NCBI GenBank assembly: GCA_014379595.1
Contig: JACMLM010000070.1
Location: 1-52,132 of the forward strand
Length of the DNA stretch: 52,132 bases
Direction: 5' to 3'
DNA from: Anaerolineales bacterium
Lineage (GTDB): Bacteria > Chloroflexota > Anaerolineae > Anaerolineales > Villigracilaceae
Position numbers and translations under genes: made by a program. The notes beneath the pieces were generated by a model. The model saw nothing but the letters and a program-made list of their open reading frames with translations. It was not told where the DNA came from and made no database searches. Positions 28,811 to 52,132 of this stretch are shown here, in pieces; the stretch's first letter is position 1; each line of letters starts with the position of its first letter.

Positions 28811-28898
28811 GGAGGGGTGGCCGAGCGGCTGAAGGCGCATGTCTTGAAAACATGTTTGGGTCACACCAACGTGGGTTCGAATCCCACCCCCTCCGCCA
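28811..28898 (+). tRNA. tRNA-Ser (anticodon UGA), CCA encoded
   Basis: Acceptor GGAGGGG pairs with CCCCTCC (28888-28894). The anticodon stem CATGT/ACATG has loop CTTGAAA with anticodon TGA at 28845-28847. A long class II variable arm (TTGGG...CACCAA type) follows, then a T-arm GTGGG-TTCGAAT-CCCAC. The discriminator G is at 28895 and CCA at 28896-28898. The long variable arm and anticodon fit serine (UCA codons). Confidence 0.97.
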
Positions 28899-28979
28899 GG
28901 CGAATTACCCGTAGTGACAGCTTTAGCAACTGTCCTTGTGCGACTAGCCGCAGAATAAAAGTCGCTACTACAAAAAACT

Positions 28980-29069
28980 GGGGAGGTGCCAGAGTGGCTG
29001 AATGGGCTCGCCTGCTAAGTGAGTGCCGGGTTAAACCGGTCGCGGGTTCGAATCCCGCCCTCCCCGCCA
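28980..29069 (+). tRNA. tRNA-Ser (anticodon GCU), CCA encoded
   Basis: Acceptor GGGGAGG (28980-28986) pairs with CCTCCCC (29059-29065). The anticodon loop CTGCTAA has GCT at 29014-29016. The long variable arm contains GCCGG/CCGGT, and the T-arm is GCGGG-TTCGAAT-CCCGC. The discriminator G is followed by CCA at 29067-29069. It reads AGC/AGU serine codons and lies 81 bp behind the UGA tRNA-Ser, probably on the same transcript. Confidence 0.97.
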
Positions 29070-38016: not shown

Positions 38017-41000
38017 TTATGCTTCATTGGAAGCGAAGGCGATGGCTTGATCCATATTCATTGCCGCGCCAGTCTTCTGTGCCTTGGCAAATTCATCTAC
38101 ACCCAATGCAGATTGCATCATCTCACGATTTCGTTCCACTTCAACGCGGTCGGCAGGCCACCACGCGCCGCCTGTGATCTTCAATACAGACTCTGCCGCG
38201 CTGAGCATGATCGTTCCCCATTCGGTTTGTCCTTGCCGCGCTTTCAAACCAGCCAGCCCAGCCAGACATTCAGCGATTCCACGCCGATTACCCAAGCGTC
38301 GGAACATCGTCAGGCTTTTTCTAAATTGGGATTCCGCACGCTCGAAATCTTCTTCGTATTGGTCGATATATCCCAGCGTGTGGATGAGGCGGGCGAGGTC
38401 GCCCTTGTCGTCTATACTGCGCAGCAAGGCCTCGCTCTGTTCGTAATATGTTCGCGCCCTATCATATTGGCCCTGTGTACGGGCCACCTCGCCCAGGTTG
38501 TTAAGGGCGAATGACAGGAGCCAGCTATCGCCCGTAACACGGGCTTCGGCTTGTGCCTGTTCGAGCCAGGCGCGCGCCTGTTCGGGGTTTCCAAGACCGA
38601 GTTCCGCATTCCCGAGATGTACTAGTGTAAAGACATGGAAAAAAGGCTGGTTCGCTTCTTCGAATATCGTTCGGGCGGCCTCCAGAAAAGGCAGCGCGTC
38701 GCTATCCCGACCCATATTGATTAAAGCTATGCCGTTAGCCAGGAGTACAGGAGCCATCCATTGCTTGTTTTCCACGCTTTGCCAGATCCCCAGACTTTCC
38801 TGTAGATGTGCGAGGCCAATCTGTTGTTCACCCTGCCATATCGCCAGCAATCCGTTGGCTTGGAGCGCCAACGCACGCGCGGGACCGGCGGTCTTCAACT
38901 CTGAAGAGGCCATGATGCGTTCTGCCCACAGGCGACCCTCACTAAAGTAGCCGCGCCGGTACCAAAACCAGGTTAGCGCAAAGACGAGAGTTGCCATTAA
39001 CTCGGCGCTGTGCGGATCAACCAGACTCCAAGTCAATGTAGCTCGAACGTTGTCATGTTCTTGTTCAAGCCAGTTCAACCAGTAGAGAGCTTTCGCTGAG
39101 TAGAGTTCGAGCAGAACTTGGTTAGCGATGAGTTTCGCAAAATACCCGGCGTGCTGTCTCTGCAACACTTCCATTTCACCGCTCTCTGCAAGTCGTTCAA
39201 GAGCATAGGTGCGGATCGTCTCCAACATTCCAAAGCGTGACTCGCCATCGGCTATATCTTCCTGTCGCAGGAGGCTGTTATTTACAAGCGATGTAAGACT
39301 TTCGAGAATATCGAGCCTGCCATCTTGATTGCACACCGCTTCGGCGGCTTCGAGCGTAAATCCACCGACAAACACACTAAGACGGGCGTATAAAGTTTTT
39401 TCGTCAGCGTTTAAAAGTTCGTAACTCCATTCGAGTGTGTTGCGGAGAGTTTGATGCCGGGCTGGGAGATCGCGCGCGCCGCCTGTAAGTAATTTAAGTT
39501 TGTCATCCAGGCGAGTCAGGATCGCCTGCGGCTGGAGAAGTTTGACGCGTGCGGCGGCAAGCTCCAAGGCAAGCGGCAGCCCATCGAGACGGCGGCAGAT
39601 TTCCGCTACGGCAGAGGCGTTGTCTTTCGTCAAAGCAAAGTTGGGATGAACTGCCTGTGCGCGTCCAACGAACAGGAGTACTGATTCGTTTCCAATTAAA
39701 TTTTCCACCGTCAATTCATTTTCGGTTTGGGGGAGTTCCAATGGCGGGACAGGAAAGGCGCGCTCGCCATGCAAGTTAAGTGCAATGCGACTGCTGGTGA
39801 TGATCTTCAACTGTGGGGCGGCGGCAAGCAGATCAGCTACAATGGGCGCGGCGGAAACCAATTGTTCAAAATTATCCAATACCAACAACATGCGTTTATC
39901 GCGCAGATAGTCTTTTACGTTCTCGAGCAGAAGGCGACCGCCTTCACGAACTTCAAGCTGTTGAGCAACTCGGGAGATGAATTGGTTGGCATCCGTATCA
40001 TCAGCTAACGGAACGAAGTAGACACCGTTTGAGAATTGATCGAGCAATTCCTGTGCAACTTGTAAGCTCAGACGAGTCTTGCCGGTGCCACCGGGTCCTA
40101 GCAATGTAACCAGATGCGTGTCTGCACCTAGCAACAATTCTTTGATCGCAGCGATTTGCGCAGTGCGCCCGATAAATGGAGTTGGTTGCGCAGGCAGTTT
40201 ATGTTTCGGTTTCTTTGGCTTCGGCGTACCGGGTGAGTCTGTGTCGGATTGATTTTCGTCGTAGAGTAACTCAACATTCGCTGGCAAAGGCAACTTGAAA
40301 ATTGCGGCGTAGCGTTTGAGATTGGCAGTAGCATAGATCAACCCTGCCAAACGTTGTTCATCCGGTTGACCCGCTTTGTGGGTGTAACTCAATCCAGCGG
40401 CAACACCTGCTAACCAGTATTGCCCCCATAAATCATCGTGCAAACTTGGATGATTCTCTTGAACCCATGTAGCAAATGCATTTCGCGCCGATTCAAAGAC
40501 AGCGCTGACTCCAGACATTTCTATTGGCACCTTATGCGGGTCAGGGATATCGGCCACCGCCATCAACGTGAGAAAGTTGATGCATTTTGCGAATGAGACT
40601 TGCGACATCGCGTGCATCAAATAGGATATTTCCAAATAGCGCTGATCATACAAGAGCGGCATTTGATCCTTGAAAAGTGCAAAGTCAATCAAATAGTAGC
40701 CTTCAAGAGATTCTTTGTCGTCGGAAAATTTGACCAATATATTATTGGTATTCAAGTCGCCATGAATGAATCCAGTTGCAACATCCATGGAACGAACCTT
40801 GCCCCATTGTTCAGGTTTGCGCGCATAAAGTAGTGGATTGGGAAACACATGTCCACTGATGAGCAAGCCTGCGATATCTGGATTGACGTGGCAAGTCTCT
40901 TGCAGAAAGCGTTCGATATTCCCACCAGCATCAAGGCGAAAGCCAAGCCATTTTTCCAATACTTTTTGTGGATGAACGGCTTGTTCGAATGTGTGAGCGC

Positions 41001-41457
41001 TATTCCACTCTGAAAGTAAAACAGTATTTGTTTTTGTAAAAATCGTTTTGAGCTGATTTTGTCGTTCGTATTTGGAAAGGGGGAGATACTTGAGCAGAGA
41101 TTGACCAGCAATACGATAAAAGATGGCAATCGCGCCCTCATGTTCAACGCGATCAAAAACTAATTCAGCAATGTGATCTCGGGCAAACTCAGCCGTGGAC
41201 TTGCTTATCACGGTGTTGTGCCGTGTGACCTCATCCGATTTCGCTGCCTTGCCCTTGCGATCCAGTTTTAGGATGGAATGCTCAACTCGTTTCGTTTCAT
41301 TTGACGAAACACTGACAAGATACACGACTGCCCCTGACCAACCGCCAACCAATAGTTGAAGCGGAGCGACTGCTATATTGTATTTATCCTGTGCCAGACG
41401 AATGATGTGCTGGTATTCTTCCGGTAGAGATTGAAAATCAGTGGTCAGTTCGGGCAT
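38017..41457 (-). CDS. Kinase-like (APH/TCAD9-type) - STAND/NB-ARC ATPase - TPR protein
   Basis: 1146 aa in three parts. Residues 1-385 resemble an aminoglycoside-phosphotransferase-type kinase fold: glycine-rich VGGWSGAVVYLV (37-48), Lys64, catalytic loop HGDLNTNN (232-239) and DFA (258-260), so an active kinase site is possible. A Pro/Lys linker follows. The AAA/STAND NTPase has GPGGTGKT (454-461), LLVLDNFEQL and GLPLALELAAA, then a helical region and about eight TPR-like repeats from about 740 to 1100. No DNA-binding domain is seen, unlike AfsR/MalT regulators. The kinase-like part resembles the 'ternary complex associated' domains of predicted NTPase conflict systems. GAGG precedes the ATG. 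Confidence 0.85.
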   Translation of the reverse strand: MPELTTDFQSLPEEYQHIIRLAQDKYNIAVAPLQLLVGGWSGAVVYLVSVSSNETKRVEHSILKLDRKGKAAKSDEVTRHNTVISKSTAEFARDHIAELVFDRVEHEGAIAIFYRIAGQSLLKYLPLSKYERQNQLKTIFTKTNTVLLSEWNSAHTFEQAVHPQKVLEKWLGFRLDAGGNIERFLQETCHVNPDIAGLLISGHVFPNPLLYARKPEQWGKVRSMDVATGFIHGDLNTNNILVKFSDDKESLEGYYLIDFALFKDQMPLLYDQRYLEISYLMHAMSQVSFAKCINFLTLMAVADIPDPHKVPIEMSGVSAVFESARNAFATWVQENHPSLHDDLWGQYWLAGVAAGLSYTHKAGQPDEQRLAGLIYATANLKRYAAIFKLPLPANVELLYDENQSDTDSPGTPKPKKPKHKLPAQPTPFIGRTAQIAAIKELLLGADTHLVTLLGPGGTGKTRLSLQVAQELLDQFSNGVYFVPLADDTDANQFISRVAQQLEVREGGRLLLENVKDYLRDKRMLLVLDNFEQLVSAAPIVADLLAAAPQLKIITSSRIALNLHGERAFPVPPLELPQTENELTVENLIGNESVLLFVGRAQAVHPNFALTKDNASAVAEICRRLDGLPLALELAAARVKLLQPQAILTRLDDKLKLLTGGARDLPARHQTLRNTLEWSYELLNADEKTLYARLSVFVGGFTLEAAEAVCNQDGRLDILESLTSLVNNSLLRQEDIADGESRFGMLETIRTYALERLAESGEMEVLQRQHAGYFAKLIANQVLLELYSAKALYWLNWLEQEHDNVRATLTWSLVDPHSAELMATLVFALTWFWYRRGYFSEGRLWAERIMASSELKTAGPARALALQANGLLAIWQGEQQIGLAHLQESLGIWQSVENKQWMAPVLLANGIALINMGRDSDALPFLEAARTIFEEANQPFFHVFTLVHLGNAELGLGNPEQARAWLEQAQAEARVTGDSWLLSFALNNLGEVARTQGQYDRARTYYEQSEALLRSIDDKGDLARLIHTLGYIDQYEEDFERAESQFRKSLTMFRRLGNRRGIAECLAGLAGLKARQGQTEWGTIMLSAAESVLKITGGAWWPADRVEVERNREMMQSALGVDEFAKAQKTGAAMNMDQAIAFASNEA

Positions 41458-43248: not shown

Positions 43249-44394
43249 TTACATTTCCCCATTCCACTCAATATCAAAAGTGGAGGCTTCCAAGGCGGTG
43301 ATCTTTTCTTTTCCTGCAAGCGATAAATAAGCAAGAATGCTTTTAAATTGCATAATAAATGGCATAGGGTCTTTGAAATCGAGGATAACGTCGCTGCTGG
43401 TGAAGAATGTTTTTATCCACTGCATGAGTTGCTTATTCTTTAATGATTGGGGAAGTCCATAGAGAAGCATGGCAGTGGCAAGCATGAATGAATTATCACT
43501 TGTTGGAGTAATACAATCCATGTTTGGATTCAAAAATGCTTCTGCAAATTTTGGATGCGATGCCAGCAAATGCACTCCGCTTGTGGCGCGCGGATTACAT
43601 TCAAGCGCATAAACCTGCCCATCTGTTGCTTGAATAAAATCAAAAGCGATCTGACCTGTGAACTGATTTTTTTCTACAAAGTTTCTTACCCAATTAAATG
43701 TACCAAGATGGTCCATATGCTGAAAAGCGATCGCCGCACCTTCGCCCGCTGTGATCGTGGATGAATATGCGGTATGCGCTGTGATATATCCATCGTGGCA
43801 AATACTATAAGTACAGATCTGCCTGCCTTTGATATATTCCTGTGCCACCCAGGGGGAATTGGAACTAACTGTCAGCTTATGTAAAGCCTGTTTTAACGTG
43901 GGCAGGATCAAAGTCTGCGCGGCGAAGCGAGAGTAAACGGGTTTAAGTACCAGTTCGCGCCAGTGTGCAAACGCGTGCAGCAGGTCATCCTGATTAAGAA
44001 GATACATCGTCTCTGGCGCATACAAGTCACGCTCGATGGCATTAACAACAAAATGCCATTTATTATGCAGGCTGTTCATTTTTTTGAGCGGCTCAACGAA
44101 GACAATACAAGGAAGCTGCTCGCGCCCCATAGCAATATAAAATGCCTCTTCACAAGTGGGAATAAGCAGTTGAATTTTATTTTCAACAATAATAGTCTTG
44201 AGCGCGTCGATAAACGCCCGCGTTTTCTGGCGGGGCGGCGGCACAAAAAAGTTTTTCTTAATCGTATTGCTCGGCTCAGACAAATGCCCATGCAAAGACT
44301 CAGCCATAAAGACGATATGCCCCGCGCGATGAAATGCACGGGCGAGTTCAAGTGTGGCAGGAGCGCGCCCGCCTGTAAGTAGAATATTAGTCAT
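43249..44394 (-). CDS. ATP-grasp domain ligase
   Basis: 381 aa. An N-terminal Rossmann-like pre-grasp region starts ILLTGGRAPATLELARAFHRAGH. The ATP-grasp core includes VLKPVYSRFAAQT, the WVAQEYIKGRQI lid strand, and the metal-binding GQVYALECNPRATSG (about 257-271). Such enzymes join a carboxylate to an amine or thiol through an acyl-phosphate; the closest general type is carbamoyl-phosphate-synthase-like or peptide-ligase-like. It ends a minus-strand series containing the oleA-, oleD- and oleC-like genes, so a role in amide tailoring of that product is plausible but unproven. Confidence 0.85.
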   Translation of the reverse strand: MTNILLTGGRAPATLELARAFHRAGHIVFMAESLHGHLSEPSNTIKKNFFVPPPRQKTRAFIDALKTIIVENKIQLLIPTCEEAFYIAMGREQLPCIVFVEPLKKMNSLHNKWHFVVNAIERDLYAPETMYLLNQDDLLHAFAHWRELVLKPVYSRFAAQTLILPTLKQALHKLTVSSNSPWVAQEYIKGRQICTYSICHDGYITAHTAYSSTITAGEGAAIAFQHMDHLGTFNWVRNFVEKNQFTGQIAFDFIQATDGQVYALECNPRATSGVHLLASHPKFAEAFLNPNMDCITPTSDNSFMLATAMLLYGLPQSLKNKQLMQWIKTFFTSSDVILDFKDPMPFIMQFKSILAYLSLAGKEKITALEASTFDIEWNGEM

Positions 44395-44445
44395 TGTTAC
44401 CCAAAGTTAATTCCATCCTATCAGAAAATCACTTTGCAGTACGTA

Positions 44446-44456
44446 CTCGCAATGAC
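44446..44456. repeat. Half copy of palindromic repeat family A
   Basis: CTCGCAATGAC matches one arm of the elements at 7142-7234 and 47675-47776; the opposite arm is missing. It lies between the oleA-like and ATP-grasp genes. Confidence 0.45.
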
Positions 44457-44457
44457 A

Positions 44458-45453
44458 CTAAAATGTTAAGACCAACCCGCCAATAGACAAACCCGCGCCC
44501 GTGCCAGCGATAAGCACTTTTTGTCCGCGCTGAATGTTTCCATCGCGCACTGCCTGATACAGCGTAGACGGGATTGAAGCCGAGACGCAATTACCAAGTG
44601 TTTCCAGCGTGCTCATAATTTTTGAGTGAGGCCATCCAAACCGCTCAAGCATCATCAAACCAACTTTGCTGGCCTGATGCGGAACAACTACATCAATATC
44701 TACCAAACTTTTTGACAACCCAGGATACAACTCTTCGAGAAAATCTCCAGCAATCTCGCGCACCATGCGCAGCACAGCAGGGCCGTCCATGTGAAAGAGA
44801 TCATCTTCAGGGTTATGATTTTTGAAACGCGGATGAAGACGCGACCCGCCGCCCATGATGGCTGTAAGATATGCGCCTTCGCCATAGGTTTTAAAATGCG
44901 CATGATGCAGAATGGACGGATCCCCTGCATTTGATTTTGTGACAACAACCGCCGCCGCCGCATCCCCGACGAGTGAAGCTGATTCTGGTTCCTTTGGGTT
45001 GATCCCACACGAGGCCACATCCGCGCTGGCGATGAGAATATTTTTATATCTGCCGTTTTGCAAAAAGTTTGCCGCTACATCCATACCTGCCACGAAGCTT
45101 AAACAAGTTGTATGTATTGTCATCGCTGGGATGCCAGAATTCCCTAATCCAAGCTGACGTTGGATCAATGAACCTGTATCAGGAATGGCTTGCTCCCCTG
45201 TGCCTGAGGCATTGATAATAAGATCAAGTTGATCGGGTTTAAGTTTCGCTTCATCCAATGCTTCACGTGCGGCTTCAGCAGACATAAACGATGACGTTTC
45301 ATCTGTCACCCATCTGCGTTCACGCACACCATTGCGCCGCTCTACCCACCCAACGGGCAGTCCGCACATGGCTTCGAGTTCTGAGCTTGGTACGATTCTT
45401 TTCGGTAAGTATCTGCCTAATCCAATAATTTTAAGGGGTAAATTGACTTGCAT
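44458..45453 (-). CDS. 3-oxoacyl-ACP synthase III-like thiolase (OleA/FabH type)
   Basis: 331 aa with the KAS III catalytic triad: Cys117 in IHTTCLSFVAG, His259 in VVPHQASK and Asn288 in TLGNCVSASIPS. GVRERRW and the C-terminal GTGAGLSIGG are conserved. FabH starts fatty-acid synthesis with acetyl-CoA, while OleA condenses two long acyl-CoAs head to head. Linkage to OleC- and OleD-like genes favours the OleA-like reading. AGGAG lies before the ATG. A 137-bp family B repeat separates it from the upstream transferase gene. Confidence 0.85.
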   Translation of the reverse strand: MQVNLPLKIIGLGRYLPKRIVPSSELEAMCGLPVGWVERRNGVRERRWVTDETSSFMSAEAAREALDEAKLKPDQLDLIINASGTGEQAIPDTGSLIQRQLGLGNSGIPAMTIHTTCLSFVAGMDVAANFLQNGRYKNILIASADVASCGINPKEPESASLVGDAAAAVVVTKSNAGDPSILHHAHFKTYGEGAYLTAIMGGGSRLHPRFKNHNPEDDLFHMDGPAVLRMVREIAGDFLEELYPGLSKSLVDIDVVVPHQASKVGLMMLERFGWPHSKIMSTLETLGNCVSASIPSTLYQAVRDGNIQRGQKVLIAGTGAGLSIGGLVLTF

Positions 45454-45480
45454 TGAGTCTCCTGAATATATTCAAAACAA

Positions 45481-45617
45481 CCTGGTGGTCGAGTAGGGCG
45501 AATGTTCTTATCGCCCGTATCGAGACCACCATATTTGAATCATACTTTTTGTTTCTTATTAAATAGGTGGTCTCGATACGCCCCGCGAAAACCATACGGG
45601 GCTACTCGACCACCAGG
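45481..45617. repeat. Palindromic repeat element, family B, with 16-bp perfect terminal inverted repeats
   Basis: CCTGGTGGTCGAGTAG (45481-45496) and CTACTCGACCACCAGG (45602-45617) are exact complements. Inner arms CGTATCGAGACCACC and GGTGGTCTCGATACG are also exact complements, and GGGCGA/TCGCCC forms a small side hairpin. The AT-rich centre has TACTTTTTGTTTC, shared with the copy at 34199. It sits in the gap upstream of the oleA-like gene and could affect its transcription. Confidence 0.9.
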
Positions 45618-45629
45618 ATTGCACTGAAA

Positions 45630-46787
45630 TCAAAAATCCATCTTCTGAAAATATGGTATCGCGTATTTTGATATTGCCTTTATTAACTGCCAGGGTCTGT
45701 GTCTCTTTACGGGCAGGTGCTGATAATACACTGCATTGTACTCAATCACAGATTTCCCGCCACGCACCTTTTTAAATTTTCCTACTCCTCCACTGGCATG
45801 GACGAGTAAGTTTCGTTTTATTCCTTCCTGCAAAGTAATAAGTGTGAGCAAACGATATAAACCTTCTTCTTGAGAAATGCTTGTATCATAGCCAAATAAT
45901 GGTTGGGTCATTGCGCCATTACGAATAAAAAATCCCATGACGGCATTTATTTTCCCATCCCGTTTTAATGCGCGCAAGTGCAATATCTCTTCATCGCGTG
46001 CAAGTTTCATAAATTCAAATGTGAACTGTGGATTGTAATAAGAATATTTTTCAAGATACAACATATTGTATAAATCTAACGAGCGCGCCAACTCAGCTTC
46101 TGACAATTCTTTGCCATCCACCACTTCATATCCATGTTTGCGAAGCACGCGCGTATCCTCTTTATATTGCCGCGTGCGACTTGCCTCCATAGGGTCCATG
46201 TACCAAACCTGGCGGCTCAACACCATTTCATACTGATTCTCTACCAAAGCTGCATATACATGCGGATTCTTCTTTTGGTCAACGGATCGAAAAACGATTA
46301 CTCGATCTGGAAACCATTTCGGCAGCGCTTCAGTTAATGCTTTGAGCTGGTCCTTATTTATGAAAGGATACAGATTCGTTGAGAGCAAATAATTATTTAC
46401 ATATACAACTTTATCCAACTCGGCATTTTTGAAATACCAAGCGACAGGATTCATGATCAACTTTATCAATACTTCTAGAGGTGGATTATTAAGATGCTTT
46501 ACCTCTTCAAACCCGCCATAGGAAACATAATGGCTGTATGGTGAAACGGTGTATGTATTATCTGGGTGAAAATCTGAAATAGTAATGGGAATAATGACAT
46601 TGTCCACTTTGGCGAGCATCAACTGTGTGCTGTATACATTCTTTATATATTTTTGCGGGCCATCCATCATCAGCGGCAAAAGATAACGGCGCGCATAGTC
46701 TCCGTCAGGCGTGGACGGCCATTCAATGGTATGAATATTTTCGCGAGTATATAAGTGCGTCGCACCAGACGGGTTGGATAATGCCAT
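45630..46787 (-). CDS. GNAT/FemAB-like (BioF2-type) acyl- or aminoacyl-transferase
   Basis: About 385 aa from the ATG at 46787 (the frame also opens with a TTG at 46805; GAGAG lies 9 nt before the ATG). Two-lobed alpha/beta sequence; the C-terminal half has RALKRDGKINAVMGFFIRNG followed by a helix and LVHASGGVGKFKKVRGG, similar to FemAB/BioF2-type GNAT-fold transferases that attach amino acids or acyl groups. N-terminal residues 20-110 resemble no family I can name. It is embedded in the ole-like gene series. Function beyond acyl/aminoacyl transfer is not assigned. Confidence 0.6.
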   Translation of the reverse strand: MALSNPSGATHLYTRENIHTIEWPSTPDGDYARRYLLPLMMDGPQKYIKNVYSTQLMLAKVDNVIIPITISDFHPDNTYTVSPYSHYVSYGGFEEVKHLNNPPLEVLIKLIMNPVAWYFKNAELDKVVYVNNYLLSTNLYPFINKDQLKALTEALPKWFPDRVIVFRSVDQKKNPHVYAALVENQYEMVLSRQVWYMDPMEASRTRQYKEDTRVLRKHGYEVVDGKELSEAELARSLDLYNMLYLEKYSYYNPQFTFEFMKLARDEEILHLRALKRDGKINAVMGFFIRNGAMTQPLFGYDTSISQEEGLYRLLTLITLQEGIKRNLLVHASGGVGKFKKVRGGKSVIEYNAVYYQHLPVKRHRPWQLIKAISKYAIPYFQKMDF

Positions 46788-46821
46788 TGATGAAGATTCT
46801 CTCAAGAGTGGATTTGTCTAC

Positions 46822-47664
46822 TTAAGTAAGGTGCGACGCACTCTCATGAGATCGAATTGTCTCTTCACAATGCGAAGGGATAATTTCCACATCAGGGTGG
46901 GTTAAATGATAGCCATGTAAGTTTGTAAGTGTTTCACGATATACATTGCCATCAGAAAAGATTAGATTAGCAATCTTATGCGGCGGACGATTATCAACAA
47001 CGGCTTGTTTTAACCATGCGGCATCTGCAACGAAGAAAAATAATTTATCATTTTCGTCGCGAGCAAAAATCCCCATTTGACCAATGGCATGCCCTGGCAA
47101 CTCCACGCCAATAATGGAACTGTCGCCGAGCAAGTCATATCCTTTTGTGAAAGGCGCATATTCTTTGGGTAAGAGGATTACGCGATTCATTTCCACTGGA
47201 TGGGAGCGTTCATCGAAATCTGAAGGGATGAGTCCACGCATAAAGGCGTGTTTCATATCTTCTGAAGGCGGCAGGTTGCGCAAACCTGCATAAGCGTGGG
47301 GCATGTAGATATAACGGGAGCCTGTCAGGTCGGGGAGTGAGGCGATGTGATCCGCATGGAAGTGAGAGATAAAAGTGTGTGTAATATCATGTGGCTGGAT
47401 TCCAAAAGTCGCAAGTTGATTCACAACCAGATCTTCTTCATGAAGAGTTACTGGTGTCATCCAGCGATAAATCCGATTGGGGAAGTTTTTGGTCTCATCA
47501 AAGAAGCGATAGGAATAGCCTGTGTCAAACAACATGGGGCCAAAGCGCGGATGTTGAAGCAGAGCAAACATAGCGGGAAAGTGAATACTTCGCCAGCGTC
47601 CGCCTTGAATGGCAATATGTTCGGGTGCAGTGCAATAGCCTGCGTAAAGAATGTTAATTTTCAT
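46822..47664 (-). CDS. MBL-fold metallo-hydrolase (AHL-lactonase-like)
   Basis: 280 aa metallo-beta-lactamase fold. The metal motif is HFHADH (101-106), with LPGHAIGQMG, the bridging Asp in VADAAW, and the terminal His in PSHC. The overall order (MLFDTGY, then the TFISHFHADH strand) is like lactonases of the AttM/AiiA group. Members open lactone rings or hydrolyse thioesters. Next to a beta-lactone-synthetase-like gene, a ring-opening or self-protection role is an attractive inference. There is no ribosome binding site, and a palindromic repeat lies 11 bp upstream of the ATG. Confidence 0.85.
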   Translation of the reverse strand: MKINILYAGYCTAPEHIAIQGGRWRSIHFPAMFALLQHPRFGPMLFDTGYSYRFFDETKNFPNRIYRWMTPVTLHEEDLVVNQLATFGIQPHDITHTFISHFHADHIASLPDLTGSRYIYMPHAYAGLRNLPPSEDMKHAFMRGLIPSDFDERSHPVEMNRVILLPKEYAPFTKGYDLLGDSSIIGVELPGHAIGQMGIFARDENDKLFFFVADAAWLKQAVVDNRPPHKIANLIFSDGNVYRETLTNLHGYHLTHPDVEIIPSHCEETIRSHESASHLT

Positions 47665-47674
47665 AAGTAAATTA

Positions 47675-47776
47675 CGTCATTGTGAGGAGCGCTCTTGCTT
47701 TTCGCGACGACACTTGCGCCGCACTGCGTTTGTTGCAGTGCGGTGCAAGTGTCGCCTTATCAGGCTCGCAATGACG
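47675..47776. repeat. Large palindromic repeat, family A, running into the 3' end of the oleD-like gene
   Basis: Outer arms CGTCATTGTGAG (47675-47686) and CTCGCAATGACG (47765-47776) pair with one mismatch. Inner arms are two perfect 9-bp stems: GACACTTGC/GCAAGTGTC (47709-47717 with 47745-47753) and CCGCACTGC/GCAGTGCGG (47719-47727 with 47735-47743). The right arm supplies the last codons of the oleD-like gene (ending SLRA). As RNA it would form a very stable hairpin between oleD and the MBL gene. Confidence 0.85.
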
Positions 47777-48761
47777 GGTGAGTCTCCTTCCACCATTTCA
47801 TAAATCTATCAAAGCCTTCATCAAGAGAAACTTTGGGTTGATATCCAAGTTCATTTTTGGCAGCCGTGATATCAAGAGTTGTATTGTTTGCAAGCATACT
47901 TACTGCCACCCGCGTGAGCGGCGGTTCGGGATGTGTTGGAATGAGTGTGTAAATAAATTCAAGTAGACTTGCAGCAACATTTGCGGTTTGATAAGAAATC
48001 TTGCGTTTGGGATATGGCAAATTAAGTTCTTGGCAAATGCGTTCGACCAATTTCCAAATTTTGACAGGTTCGCCATTGGAGATATTGTATTTTCTACCAA
48101 GCGTACTAACAGGTGATTCTGCACATAATAAAAGTGCATCTACAACATTTTCGATATAGGTCAGGTCAACAACATTTTCACCGTTGCCCAAAATGGGAAG
48201 TCTGCCAGATTGCAGGCGCGGAATTAAACGAGGGAAAATAACTGTATCGCCAGGTCCAAATATCGCACGCGGGCGGGTTGTAATTGTAGGCAGGCCCTTC
48301 GCAAATGCTTCGTCAACTTCCTGTTCGGCGAGGATCTTTGTGGCTGCGTAATTACTCACGGGTTCAGGCAACACATCTGTTTCCTTGACATTCATGCGCG
48401 ATGAATATCCAAAATAAAGGCTGGGTGTCGAAACATACACGAGTCGTTTTATTTTATGTTCCTCGCATCCTCGAATAACATTGCGTGTGCCAATTACATT
48501 GGCTTGATAAAACTTTTCATAGTTTCCCCATGGCGATGGAAAAGCAGCGCAATGAAAAACGATCTCTTGATTCTTGCAGGCATCTATGAGTCCATCTTTC
48601 TTTGTAATATCTAGCTGAAACGTATTAATTCCTTCACTTTCAAGTTCATCCAACTTGAAGGTATTTCGTCCCAACGCAGTGACATCCCAGCCTATGCTGT
48701 GCAAACGGCGAGTCAATGCACCGCCCAGGAATCCTGTCGCCCCTGTGACCAAAGCCTTCAC
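47760..48761 (-). CDS. NAD(P)-dependent epimerase/3-beta-HSD-like reductase (OleD-like)
   Basis: 333 aa extended SDR. TGATGFLGGAL (6-16) binds the cofactor; STPSLYFG and SNYAATK (Tyr138, Lys142) form the active site; TTRPRAIFGPGD follows. The IFGPGD and GNGENVVDLTYIENVVDA segments are typical of the 3-beta-HSD family containing OleD, which reduces 2-alkyl-3-ketoacids to 2-alkyl-3-hydroxyacids. The GTG start overlaps the stop of the oleC-like gene (GTGA), so the two are translationally coupled, in line with sequential steps. Its C-terminal few residues come from a palindromic repeat. Confidence 0.85.
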   Translation of the reverse strand: MKALVTGATGFLGGALTRRLHSIGWDVTALGRNTFKLDELESEGINTFQLDITKKDGLIDACKNQEIVFHCAAFPSPWGNYEKFYQANVIGTRNVIRGCEEHKIKRLVYVSTPSLYFGYSSRMNVKETDVLPEPVSNYAATKILAEQEVDEAFAKGLPTITTRPRAIFGPGDTVIFPRLIPRLQSGRLPILGNGENVVDLTYIENVVDALLLCAESPVSTLGRKYNISNGEPVKIWKLVERICQELNLPYPKRKISYQTANVAASLLEFIYTLIPTHPEPPLTRVAVSMLANNTTLDITAAKNELGYQPKVSLDEGFDRFMKWWKETHPSLRA

Positions 48762-50437
48762 AAAATACTCTTTTCTGCCAGCAAAGTTAGTTGCTCACGA
48801 ATGATCTTTGAATTGTGCCGCACATCTGTTGGAAATTTTTTCATGAACAAAAATGTTCTTATTTTCGACGCTTGTGGATGATTCTTTGCGAGTTCCATTA
48901 ATTCCTGCTTGATTTTATCTTGGATTACAAAAACTTCGGAAGTCTGCCATGGTGCGGTTAAGACAGGAATTTTTCCAAAAGACTTCCGAAGTTTGGCGCG
49001 AGGTTCAACCCACAAAACTGGTTCTTTGTTCACGCCCACCAAAGCAGTTCTATAAATTTCTGCATGTTCATTGAAGATGCCTTCGATTTGTTCAGTAAAC
49101 ATAACAATATCATTTGTTTGGACACGATGAGATTTTCTTCCGCAATACCATAAATGTCCTTGCTCATCAAAATATCCCACATCCCCCATGCGATGAATGA
49201 CATCATCTCCCATTTTGATTTTTGCCAAACGATTTGCATCTTCTCTGTGGAAGTAAACCCGAGTCACCGCCGCGCCTTGAACTGTGATCTCGCCAATTAC
49301 ATTGGGTTGCACTTCAAGAGAATCCTGCCATGCCTCAATTGCAGAATCTGTTATCTCAATAATGCGGACAGTTGCTCCATCTACGGGCTTACCGAGGCAT
49401 ATGCCTGCACCTTGGGCTGTTTTATTTGCAATATCAAATATTTCATGGCTCTCTATCTTTGCAATGGGCAATGCTTCTGTTGCACCATAGATACCAAAAA
49501 GACTGGTTTCATCACCAAGGACATTCCTAAACCTATTCTGGAGTTGAGTTGATGCTGGTGCCCCTGCCGTGATGACTCGTTTTAAGCTAGGCAAATGGTG
49601 GTCTCGATACGTTTCTCGCTCGCGCTCGAAACTACTCGACCACTGTTGTTCATAATATTTTGCCAGAATATCCAGCACTACGGGCGAAGCGAACATATTT
49701 GTCACATTGAATTGTTGAATGGCATGAATTACTTTTTCGGGATTTGTTTTCCCTGGCACAGGAAAGTTGATATCTGGAATCACAGATGTGACGCCGAGCA
49801 ATACATCGATAATGGCATAAAGAGGAAAAGCAGGGAGATCAATTTCATCTGGTGAGATGTTAAATGTTGCCTGAAACAAATCCAATTGAGCAGAAAAGTT
49901 TCCGTGATTGTATAGCACGCCCTTTGGAGATCCTGTGCTTCCGCTAGTGTAGATGATGGCGGCGGGAGAGTCAGTATTCAGTAACCAGTGATCTGTTGTT
50001 TGTAATTCGTAATTAGTAATTCGTAACAATTGATTAATAGATAAGTTATGTTTGATCGATTCTTTTCCCCAGCCAAATAGTTTTCGCAAAGTATGAGTAA
50101 GTGTGTTCCCAATAAAAATATCGGGCTTTGATTCTTTGAAGGATGCTTTTACTTTTTTTAATCCAATGGCAGGATCAACAATGATCGGAACAATACCAAG
50201 TTTGAGCAGCGCAAATGTCAAAGCGAAGAACTCAACGGATGGAAGAGTCATCAATGCGGCAGTCATGCCTGAGGTAATACGGCAGGCTAAAAGTCCATGG
50301 GCGATACGGTTTGTTAAATCCAATAATTGGGCGTAGGTGACAGTTTCCCAAATCCCTTTGTGAAAATAAATAAACGCGGCCTTGTCTGGGTAACGCGCCG
50401 CGTTGGTTTCGAATCTTTTCCAAATGTCTGAAATCAT
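48758..50437 (-). CDS. oleC: OleC-like AMP-binding ligase / beta-lactone synthetase
   Basis: 559 aa of the ANL superfamily. The P-loop is YTSGSTGSPKG (163-173), A5 is YGATEALP (317-324) and the hinge region is CGRKSHRV. The terminal FPTDVRHNSKIIREQL segment and the GATEALPIA motif are hallmarks of OleC proteins, which convert 2-alkyl-3-hydroxyacids to beta-lactones with ATP. The start overlaps the stop of the small GNAT gene (ATGA). Two repeat-derived segments are translated in frame: residues 265-281 (49596-49645, family B) and about 138-146 (50002-50026). Both lie in loop regions, with core motifs intact. Confidence 0.88.
   Translation of the reverse strand: MISDIWKRFETNAARYPDKAAFIYFHKGIWETVTYAQLLDLTNRIAHGLLACRITSGMTAALMTLPSVEFFALTFALLKLGIVPIIVDPAIGLKKVKASFKESKPDIFIGNTLTHTLRKLFGWGKESIKHNLSINQLLRITNYELQTTDHWLLNTDSPAAIIYTSGSTGSPKGVLYNHGNFSAQLDLFQATFNISPDEIDLPAFPLYAIIDVLLGVTSVIPDINFPVPGKTNPEKVIHAIQQFNVTNMFASPVVLDILAKYYEQQWSSSFERERETYRDHHLPSLKRVITAGAPASTQLQNRFRNVLGDETSLFGIYGATEALPIAKIESHEIFDIANKTAQGAGICLGKPVDGATVRIIEITDSAIEAWQDSLEVQPNVIGEITVQGAAVTRVYFHREDANRLAKIKMGDDVIHRMGDVGYFDEQGHLWYCGRKSHRVQTNDIVMFTEQIEGIFNEHAEIYRTALVGVNKEPVLWVEPRAKLRKSFGKIPVLTAPWQTSEVFVIQDKIKQELMELAKNHPQASKIRTFLFMKKFPTDVRHNSKIIREQLTLLAEKSIL
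49596..49645. repeat. Half-size family B palindrome inside the oleC-like gene
   Basis: TGGTGGTCTCGATACG at 49596-49611 is identical to an arm of the 45481 element, and CTACTCGACCAC at 49632-49643 matches its terminal arm. GCTCGC/GCGCTC symmetry lies between. The 50-bp element is in frame and encodes an S/R/E/H-rich loop (residues 265-281) of the ligase. Confidence 0.8.
50002..50026. repeat. AATTCGTAATTAG-type dispersed repeat inside the oleC-like gene
   Basis: GTAATTCGTAATTAGTAATTCGTAA is a self-similar AT-rich tract. On the gene strand it yields the RITNYELQ-type peptide, a translated repeat pattern seen in many repeat-rich environmental bacteria. It is frame-preserving. Confidence 0.5.
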
Positions 50438-50739
50438 TCTTCTTTATGTGGTTTTGTGAGACCCATATATTGTGGATTTCTGCGAACATATGCACCGACA
50501 TACGGGCACATGGGAATCACCCGAAGCGACTTCTCTTTTGCATATTCAAGAGCCGCTTGTGTAACTTTTCCTGCAACACCCCTGCCTCTGTGATCTGGAT
50601 GCACACCTACATGAGTCATGATAATGGTGCTGCCATCCATGGTGTAATCCAATTTTGCAAGCTGACCATCGATCCATGCTTCAAAACGATTCTCTTTTTC
50701 ATTATGAGTTACTTCAAGATTCTCTAAGTTGAGATCCAT
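50434..50739 (-). CDS. Small GNAT-like acetyltransferase (YjdJ/GCN5-related, PF14542 type)
   Basis: 101 aa. The compact fold has MTHVGVHPDHRGRGVAGKVTQAALEYA (about 41-67), the acetyl-CoA-binding loop, and MCPYVGAYVRRNPQY at the C-terminus, which is characteristic of the short Gcn5-related family including human NATD1 and E. coli YjdJ. Substrate unknown. AAGGA precedes the ATG. It follows the agmatinase-like gene by 10 bp and overlaps the oleC-like start by 4 bp, so it sits in the same transcript. Confidence 0.87.
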   Translation of the reverse strand: MDLNLENLEVTHNEKENRFEAWIDGQLAKLDYTMDGSTIIMTHVGVHPDHRGRGVAGKVTQAALEYAKEKSLRVIPMCPYVGAYVRRNPQYMGLTKPHKEE

Positions 50740-50749
50740 TGGATTTCCT

Positions 50750-51643
50750 TTATTTTTGTTTTTCGCGTGCGATAACCGCGATATATTCCATGATAATTTT
50801 CAAGCCTGCGAAAACCGTAGCTTCAGATGGGTCCAGTGGAGGTGCGATCTCAACAACATCCAAGCCAACGAGAGGCAAACCTTGCATGGATTTAAGTAGT
50901 GTTAAAACATCACGCGAGGTCAAACCGCCAAATTCAGGAATACCAGTCCCAGGGGCAAAAGCTGGGTCGAGACAGTCAATATCCAGTGAGATATGAATTG
51001 CATCACAATCGTTGAGAATATTATGGATGCTATCCGCTACTTTTCGTATACCGCGTTCAGCCACATCTGCGGCAGTATAAACATGGACACCGCCATTTTC
51101 GATGATGTCAATTTCCTGATCTTCCCATGAACGCAAGCCCACCATACAAACATCGTGCGGTTCGATTCCAAATTCCAGTCCGCGCCTCATAACACAGGCA
51201 TGAGAAAGCCTTGAACCATCAAAGTTGTCACATAGGTCGGGGTGCGCATCCACCCATAGCACGCCAAGCCGCATATCTTTATAACGTTCGCGTTGACCTT
51301 GAAGAATGGGAATGGTTACAGAATGATCACCGCCCAGAAGAATCGGCATATTGGGCAGGGTGGCCACTCGTTGGCGAACCATGTTGAAGTCCGATTCAGG
51401 ATTCGTGATTGGAATGTCACCCAGATCGCAGACTGTTAAATCCTTGAGGCGAGTCCTGTCTTCACTAAAAGGAGTCACATGGCGTGACCAATATCGCAGC
51501 CGTTCAGGCGCCAGAGCCGCACCTTTTCGTGCACTGGCAAGGCCATCAAAAGGAATGCCGATCACACTGAAATCAGCTTGTTTTGGGGTGATATCGGGGC
51601 GGTGCAGATCGCCCCAAAATCCGTGATTGCCTTCAACTGCCAT
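50750..51643 (-). CDS. Arginase/agmatinase family ureohydrolase
   Basis: 297 aa from the ATG at 51643 (AGGAG upstream; the frame also extends to 51694). Manganese-site motifs are LLGGDHS (102-108), DAHPD (132-136) and SLDIDCLDPAFAPG (about 221-234), the full set for binuclear-Mn ureohydrolases. It is likely agmatinase (agmatine to putrescine and urea), but arginase, guanidinobutyrase or formimidoylglutamase cannot be separated by motif. It is the first gene of the series running into the ole-like genes, and it is divergent from a lysine 2,3-aminomutase gene. Confidence 0.88.
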   Translation of the reverse strand: MAVEGNHGFWGDLHRPDITPKQADFSVIGIPFDGLASARKGAALAPERLRYWSRHVTPFSEDRTRLKDLTVCDLGDIPITNPESDFNMVRQRVATLPNMPILLGGDHSVTIPILQGQRERYKDMRLGVLWVDAHPDLCDNFDGSRLSHACVMRRGLEFGIEPHDVCMVGLRSWEDQEIDIIENGGVHVYTAADVAERGIRKVADSIHNILNDCDAIHISLDIDCLDPAFAPGTGIPEFGGLTSRDVLTLLKSMQGLPLVGLDVVEIAPPLDPSEATVFAGLKIIMEYIAVIAREKQK

Positions 51644-51923: not shown

Positions 51924-52132
51924 ATGCCCAGCCCTATTATTTCAAAACGTGCGCCAATTTACGCCGATGTTCCAGATGAAAAATGGAACGATTGGCGCTG
52001 GCAATTAAGCAACCGCCTGAATACCGCGGAAGATATTGAAAAAGTTTTACCGATCACAGACAGTGAAAGAAAGGCGTTGCAAACGCAAGGCCTGTTCCGT
52101 GTAGATATAACGCCTTACTTTATTTCTTTGAT
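51924..52132 (+). CDS. kamA: Lysine 2,3-aminomutase, N-terminal part (cut by window edge)
   Basis: 69 codons are visible, opening MPSPIISKRAPIYADVPDEK and continuing with the WNDWRWQLSNRL and DIEKVLPITDSER segments that are characteristic of lysine 2,3-aminomutase before its radical-SAM core. The ATG has GGAGGA 3 nt upstream. The full enzyme converts L-lysine to L-beta-lysine using SAM, PLP and a [4Fe-4S] cluster; these sites lie beyond the window. In some bacteria beta-lysine is acetylated to an osmolyte; a partner ablB gene may follow outside. Confidence 0.85.
   Translation, partial: MPSPIISKRAPIYADVPDEKWNDWRWQLSNRLNTAEDIEKVLPITDSERKALQTQGLFRVDITPYFISL

Follow-up and report, generated by a model that had tools for sequence, protein, structure and literature searches.

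The stretch of DNA analyzed here (the window) is the 52,132-nucleotide contig JACMLM010000070.1 of an Anaerolineales bacterium (assembly GCA_014379595.1; Chloroflexota, Villigracilaceae), and constitutes one entire contig (C14) of a 4.47 Mb genome in 72 contigs that is 95% complete. Its last 9 kb carry a minus-strand series of eight genes, which the original prediction, made from the sequence alone, had described as an OleA/C/D-like set without OleB and had assigned to a retained or hydrolyzed β-lactone joined to an amine or amino acid. All eight open reading frames (ORFs) are open at the places proposed, and both of the predicted 4-nt overlaps, between the GNAT and the adenylate-forming (ANL) ligase and between the ligase and the short-chain reductase (SDR), are present. 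Scoring of the window proteins with NCBIfam and Pfam models against curated cut-offs confirmed the fold classes that had been named, with an ANL ligase, an OleD-like SDR, an AttM-like metallo-β-lactamase-fold (MBL) protein containing HFHADH and an agmatinase over its cut-off, the label "OleA-like" holding only superficially for the thiolase. The series is composed of the following genes.

43249–44394, minus strand: MysC-like ATP-grasp ligase, last gene of the series; nearest NCBIfam family NF005315/PRK06849
44458–45453, minus strand: CorB/MxnB-type KASIII ketosynthase (KS); C117, H259 and N288, with Ile90 where OleA has Glu
45630–46787, minus strand: Fem/MprF-like tandem-GNAT transferase, by fold match of its AlphaFold2 (AF2) model
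46822–47664, minus strand: AttM-like MBL hydrolase with a complete two-metal motif
47760–48761, minus strand: OleD-like NAD(P)-dependent SDR with a GTG start; NF042422, 271.8 bits; TGATGFLG and YAATK motifs
48758–50437, minus strand: OleC-like ANL ligase; NF006754, 556.9 bits; 4-nt overlap with the SDR
50434–50739, minus strand: small GNAT (PF14542), accessory; 4-nt overlap with the ligase
50750–51643, minus strand: agmatinase-type ureohydrolase, a local neighbor; TIGR01230, 187.7 bits (cut-off 174.3)

A scan of GTDB by the ATP-grasp gave at least 556 confirmed stretches, of which the best 80, holding 80 distinct ATP-grasps, were used; because these loci were found through the ATP-grasp and are the top-ranked part of that larger number, they are not a random sample. 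Fragments below set lengths and rows with internal stops were left out before counting, and the KS, ATP-grasp, SDR, MBL and adenylating ligase were taken as the five core genes. The nearest named relatives of the window sequence in this set are Chloroflexota metagenome-assembled genomes (MAGs), labeled Chloroflexi, Anaerolineaceae and Anaerolineales. Near the ATP-grasp, a KS was found in 73 of the 80 loci, an MBL in 67, an SDR in 66 and a Fem-like gene in 53, together with either an F390-like ligase (46 loci) or an OleC-like ligase (14 loci) and never both. All five core genes occur in 59 loci and none of the partners in six. The well-flanked subset, comprised of the 54 loci in which the ATP-grasp has 7 kb or more of sequence on each side, has a KS and an SDR in 51 each, an MBL in 49, a ligase in 47 and a Fem-like gene in 34, with none of the partners in three; as 46 of these 54 loci carry all five core genes, the grouping is more than chance. 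Tight packing is also common, with the ATP-grasp and SDR genes overlapping or abutting in 42/50 cases and the F390-like and Fem-like genes in 29/32.

Full five-gene sets are present in six phyla: Chloroflexota, Bacillota (Paenibacillus, Brevibacillus, Cohnella and Thermoactinomycetaceae), Cyanobacteriota (Cylindrospermum), Deinococcota (one Trueperaceae MAG), Chlamydiota (one Parachlamydiaceae MAG) and Pseudomonadota, the last on plasmids of Rhizobium, Roseateles and Paraburkholderia. A plasmid search found relatives of the ATP-grasp in 14 records. One Deinococcus plasmid has the ATP-grasp and a Fem-like gene only in the stretch that was read, and another has the ATP-grasp beside a 372-amino acid gene. 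Three Pseudomonas plasmids carry looser gene sets; on the large P. amygdali plasmid pMPPla107 (L200) and a large plasmid of Pseudomonas sp. Leaf58 (L211), a TIGR02304 enzyme and a MysC-like ATP-grasp are loosely packed between genes without annotation, with an MBL in L211. The ATP-grasp was found in 8 of 251 genomes of the phylum sample. Of the 152 host-family genomes, 43 have the ATP-grasp (E ≤ 1e-20) and 42 the cassette-type KS (E ≤ 1e-90), with 40 having both, three the ATP-grasp alone and two the KS alone (Fisher p = 1.2e-30, a value that ignores kinship). The gene set is, in short, conserved beyond this strain, in the host family, across GTDB and on plasmids, and forms a real and widespread cassette, although the family labels first given to its members need changing. 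No description of the cassette turned up in the open-access literature among the matches listed.

Core genes that are split apart are often still found within one genome. Eleven distinct genomes and one plasmid were represented in the 14 entries used for this comparison (identical coordinates being shared by G295/G389 and G343/G390), and nine of the 11 genomes hold a cassette-type KS (at least 375 bits, with FabH-type copies at about 260 or less). There is no KS near the ATP-grasp in eight of the 11 (G005, G343, G295, G220, G214, G388, G391 and G392), six of which have the KS elsewhere. In G295 the ATP-grasp lies about 60 kb from the SDR, MBL, Fem-like and KS genes, and contig breaks may lie behind some of the separated pairs. 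In G220 and G214 the SDR, MBL, F390-like and KS genes are on one contig and the ATP-grasp and Fem-like genes on another, a split that fits a division between an acyl part (KS, SDR, MBL and ligase) and amino acid attachment (ATP-grasp and Fem-like).

Judged by its sequence, the window thiolase is a CorB/MxnB-type ketosynthase, neither OleA nor a housekeeping FabH. It scores 351 bits on PRK07204 (cut-off 402) and 111.2 bits on NF006720/PRK09258, the OleA model, below the cut-off of 285. Among structures in the PDB it matches CorB with 329 bits and MxnB with 323 bits, the best FabH with 167 bits and OleA entries with 65–67 bits; the entry at 67 bits, 3fk5, is one that we take to be OleA. The entry at 65 bits, 3s23, is given as OleA in PMC5724707. 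In a tree of 63 KS sequences, the 15 FabH-type rows split from the other 48, which comprise cassette KS, cassette-type KS of other genomes, CorB and MxnB, with a support of 100. CorB and MxnB branch with the Chloroflexota-type cassette KS with a support of 97, or 99 once four OleA sequences from Chloroflexota were added; in the enlarged tree these four group together in a separate clade (support 100) and FabH stands apart (support 92). The trees are quick ones with support from the SH-like approximate likelihood ratio test only, were built without PpyS and chalcone-type rows, and contain one gene twice (L106/L157). A grouping with housekeeping FabH was not found, and a FabH identity was rejected on these branchings and on the PDB scores (167 versus 329 and 323 bits).

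The catalytic residues Cys117, His259 and Asn288 are invariant in all 85 distinct cassette KS (92/92 rows before deduplication, some host-family genomes having been fetched twice). The column in which OleA has its Glu, Ile90 in the window, is occupied by Ile in 60 and by Leu in 25 of the 85 distinct sequences (67 and 25 of the 92 rows) and by Glu in none, and CorB and MxnB carry Val there when aligned with the cassette KS. MxnB and CorB are likewise without this Glu, having Val94 instead, according to Kresovic et al. (PMC4578411), where the pyrone synthase PpyS is stated to use a catalytic Glu105. The PpyS Glu105 is not matched, as cassette KS have Ile or Leu at the column of MxnB Val94 in an alignment that contained no PpyS row. 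The window KS is similar to CorB and MxnB in its strong sequence match, its Cys-His-Asn triad, the lack of an OleA-type Glu and its clade. However, CorB and MxnB serve polyketide synthase (PKS) carrier proteins in PKS clusters, whereas the KS described here belongs to a small cassette in which its partners are an SDR, an MBL and a pair of ligases.

MxnB forms a pyrone in vitro from two carrier-bound chains (PMC5724707), and one alternative is that the cassette KS releases a CorB/MxnB-like α-pyrone, the remaining enzymes tailoring its ends or detoxifying it and the MBL opening the lactone. The grouping of CorB and MxnB with the Chloroflexota-type KS and the lactonase-like character of the MBL are consistent with such a pathway; nevertheless, the cassette encodes neither a PKS nor a carrier protein, and pyrone making would not need as many enzymes as the SDR, the transferase and the two ligases present here. 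This explanation is quite unlikely.

Assignment of the thiolase to OleA, as in the original prediction, does not agree with these data. The published OleA pattern EPxx[AS]x(14,18)DxxNACL, in which the catalytic Glu precedes Pro (PMC7158056), is absent from 91/91 cassette KS rows. In a control search, 20 of 301 Chloroflexota genomes contained a gene over the PRK09258 cut-off, at 440–461 bits. Four control OleA genes from other Chloroflexota families (L220–L223) were read; all four have the published pattern and a Glu in the Ile90 column, and two of the four loci adjoin OleC- and OleD-like genes, which supports the model as meaning OleA. The host genome has no gene over the cut-off of 285, its two KASIII matches reaching 121 and 105 bits, and consequently gives no indication of an Ole pathway of the classical kind. 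An OleA identity was rejected on the model score, the missing pattern and Glu, the tree and the four positive controls. The predicted lack of OleB beside the cassette was borne out at the locus. Although Chloroflexi are among the phyla reported to have oleABCD (PMC7158056) and the host genome has 39 α/β-hydrolase-fold matches, counted at fold level, classical OleABCD olefin synthesis with an oleB elsewhere is highly improbable, given a host without an OleA over cut-off, against the 20 of 301 Chloroflexota genomes with one, and a KS in which the pattern and Glu found in 4/4 control OleA are missing.

The OleC-like ligase is over the cut-off of 478 for NF006754 (PRK09274 family), but reaches only 496.4 and 482.2 bits on the strict OleC models NF045785 and NF045786 (cut-offs 850 and 900), and the OleD-like SDR is far below the NF042422 cut-off of 580. 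There is no close second copy of the ligase in the host genome, the sole other match having 23% identity. In other loci its place is taken by enzymes of TIGR02304 (F390-synthetase-related), a distant branch of adenylating enzymes that is absent from the window's cassette. In Bacillota, Pseudomonadota, Cyanobacteriota, Chlamydiota and a few Chloroflexota (L109, G128, G220 and G214), the cassette has one of these F390-like enzymes, the OleC-like ligase having been seen in Chloroflexota and in the Trueperaceae MAG.

This distribution bears on the proposed β-lactone. An oleACD-type pathway would use the KS, SDR and OleC-like ligase to form a β-lactone that is kept or opened by the MBL. It is encouraged by the ligase being over its broad cut-off, by the OleD-like SDR, by the host genome being without an OleA over cut-off, and by known oleACD clusters without oleB, which produce β-lactones (PMC7064751); for this last reason Chloroflexota may yet pass through a β-lactone stage. 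The KS is not OleA, however, the scores on the strict OleC and OleD models fall well short of the cut-offs, and an F390-like enzyme stands in place of the OleC-like ligase in 46 of the 60 ligase-bearing loci, leaving the latter in only 14. As the ligase is replaced in most loci, a retained β-lactone is unlikely to be the common product, contrary to what had been proposed as the shared theme, and the pathway as a whole is also unlikely. The likeness of the cassette to OleABCD and oleACD systems is limited to the OleD-like reductase and, in 14/80 loci, a thiolase-fold enzyme with an OleC-like ligase next to it; it differs in a thiolase that is not OleA, in the lack of an adjoining OleB and in the added ATP-grasp, Fem-like and MBL genes. 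On the sequence comparisons, the Ole reading of the series is mostly wrong.

The ATP-grasp scores 402.8 bits on NF005315, just under the cut-off of 406, with the next family at 30 bits. The same family is the nearest for MysC, which acts on an enolic 1,3-dicarbonyl: a relative in Nostoc sp. HK-01, annotated "hypothetical protein," has 560 bits on NF005315 and adjoins a dehydroquinate-synthase-like gene, an O-methyltransferase and a D-Ala-D-Ala-ligase-like gene. As this neighborhood has the make-up of the mysABCD sunscreen cluster (PMC10510106), the Nostoc gene is called MysC here, an enzyme that couples glycine to 4-deoxygadusol (same source). The window ATP-grasp has 29% identity to it over 364 amino acids and has other gene partners, and the Cylindrospermum and Calothrix genomes carry a MysC-like gene as well as a cassette ATP-grasp. 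In a tree made without another ATP-grasp as outgroup, the three MysC-type rows are a long-branched clade among the cassette ATP-grasps. The AF2 model of the window protein (predicted local distance difference test score, pLDDT, 95) matches the folds of PurD, PurK, PylC and 2pn1, and an ECNPR motif is located at residue 265. It is described here as a MysC-like ATP-grasp whose predicted role is the joining of an amino acid to either an enol or a carboxylate. A solitary cassette-type ATP-grasp in G005 (L050, 11612–12847), a genome without a cassette-type KS, has ECLPY for ECNPR and looks, from its sequence, like a decaying or repurposed remnant.

The fold of the ATP-grasp also fits enzymes that ligate carboxylates to amines, among them PurD and PylC, and the KS has an intact Cys-His-Asn triad as in FabH. 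Both features would be expected of a lipo-amino acid pathway in which a FabH-like KS makes one β-ketoacyl chain, the SDR reduces it, and the ligases join the resulting 3-hydroxyacid to amino acids. The KS clade is, however, apart from FabH (support 100, or 92 with OleA included) and contains CorB and MxnB, and we regard this pathway as unlikely.

At E 0.001, neither Pfam nor NCBIfam gave a match for the protein encoded at 45630–46787, and a sequence profile of its family gave no credible match in the PDB. The closest folds to its AF2 model (pLDDT 95) are Sbb17/Sba18 (Z 18.9–18.5), followed by FemX (16.9), MprF (16.5) and FemA (15.2), with the class of Sbb17, FemX, FemA and MprF spanning Z 18.9 to 14.4. 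The top matches Sbb17/Sba18, FemX and MprF are aminoacyl-tRNA-dependent transferases, although the Fem-like protein shares only 10–13% identity with them. The family is basic, with a median isoelectric point of 9.1 (71 rows), and the Fem-like protein is predicted from its modeled fold to be an aminoacyl-tRNA-dependent transferase. The expectation of amide-forming or transfer enzymes in the series is therefore upheld, with the MysC-like ATP-grasp and the Fem-like fold as putative amino acid-joining enzymes. The MBL is nearest to AttM-type lactonases, at 65 bits against a cut-off of 390, and has its metal motifs HFHADH, PGH, VAD and SHC at residues 101, 190, 212 and 264, respectively; the H.H.DH, GH, AD and HC positions reach 95% conservation or more across an alignment of 85 rows, of which 77 are distinct with the window not counted.

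Collectively, the sequence and model comparisons suggest, tentatively, a biosynthetic cassette in which two acyl chains are joined and amino acids are coupled to the product, a reading that we consider a serious possibility although somewhat short of probable. The KS would join two acyl thioesters to give an enolizable 1,3-dicarbonyl, either a β-ketoacid or a 4-hydroxy-pyrone. The SDR, MBL and adenylating ligase would determine how oxidized this intermediate is, hydrolyze a lactone or thioester and convert a carboxylate to an activated form; the MysC-like ATP-grasp would then attach an amino acid at the enol (or at the carboxylate). Where present, the Fem-like enzyme would add a further aminoacyl unit from tRNA. 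The predicted product would be a two-chain acyl compound bearing amino acids. A more specific form, in which one undescribed natural product class is common to the six phyla, the myxopyronin-type KS yielding an enolic 1,3-dicarbonyl that the MysC-like ATP-grasp turns into a lipid-borne enaminone prior to tRNA-dependent aminoacylation, is doubtful.

Several observations weigh against the coupling of amino acids to a two-chain enol. In 20 of the 54 well-flanked loci, no Fem-like gene was found close to the ATP-grasp, which indicates that tRNA-dependent transfer is not essential, and generic tandem GNATs also fit the Fem-like fold (VipF, Z 15.0). Enol chemistry, as opposed to carboxylate ligation, is a guess in view of the 29% identity to MysC, the long branch and the tree without an outgroup, and the modeled ATP-grasp fold would suit ordinary carboxylate-amine ligases as well. 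The PKS carrier proteins that CorB and MxnB use were not recognized here. The G005 and G343 genomes have the ATP-grasp without a cassette-type KS, with the ECNPR motif changed in G005. Finally, Kresovic et al. place MxnB and CorB within the FabH clade of a 284-sequence ketosynthase tree (PMC4578411), a placement that the smaller and differently sampled trees presented here do not reproduce. What stands of the pathway first proposed is a conserved gene set with candidate amino acid-joining enzymes and no description found among the open-access matches listed; OleA, the shared β-lactone and the ureohydrolase and GNAT as pathway parts are not supported.

The agmatinase and the small GNAT, which had been counted as pathway parts, are not in the conserved set, occurring in one and six of the 80 loci, respectively; together with KamA, also in six, they were rejected as conserved parts. 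The KamA gene is represented in the window by a divergent gene at 51924–52132 (plus strand), cut by the contig end, which is presumably KamA-like (lysine 2,3-aminomutase-like). Of nine host-family loci with the OleC-like gene and 3.5 kb upstream of it, three have the agmatinase, five the small GNAT and six KamA, and a local role is possible for the small GNAT because it overlaps the ligase by 4 nt in the window. All three are best described as local neighbors and possible local accessories. A comparison of 106 loci, a set in which some places occur more than once, showed KamA-like genes close to the cassette site in 13, several of these being duplicate retrievals of the same place. In the same set, a second SDR follows the cassette in 29 loci, all from Paenibacillus, Cohnella or Brevibacillus, with or without a Fem-like gene (for example L121, 14428–15297). 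A Rieske protein is present in 3 of the best 80 loci, and Rieske [2Fe-2S] proteins were seen in L070 (11137–12126), L071, L072, L101, L106 and L109, from Pseudomonadota, Cyanobacteriota and one Chloroflexota MAG; that of L070 has weak similarity to the sterol demethylase SdmA. The Rieske protein and the second SDR are lineage extras.

Promoter and terminator scans performed no better than on shuffled sequences. The G+C content is about 43–44% over the cassette and 44–49% elsewhere, which gives no clear sign of a recent import. The window also includes a 1146-amino acid ORF (38017–41457, minus strand), which by eye resembles a phosphotransferase-type kinase in its N-terminal part and an NB-ARC/TPR regulator in its later part, and two tRNA-Ser genes (TGA and GCT) 81 bases apart (28811–29069, plus strand).

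As the core genes occur in named strains of Paenibacillus and Brevibacillus, a metabolite common to six phyla can be sought by way of one small operon. A role would follow for PRK06849 and TIGR02304, families that are named "hypothetical protein" and "F390 synthetase-related," respectively. The cassette also suggests an origin for the antibiotic-making ketosynthases CorB and MxnB; if the enaminone reading is true, these myxobacterial enzymes would descend from a stand-alone cassette pathway.

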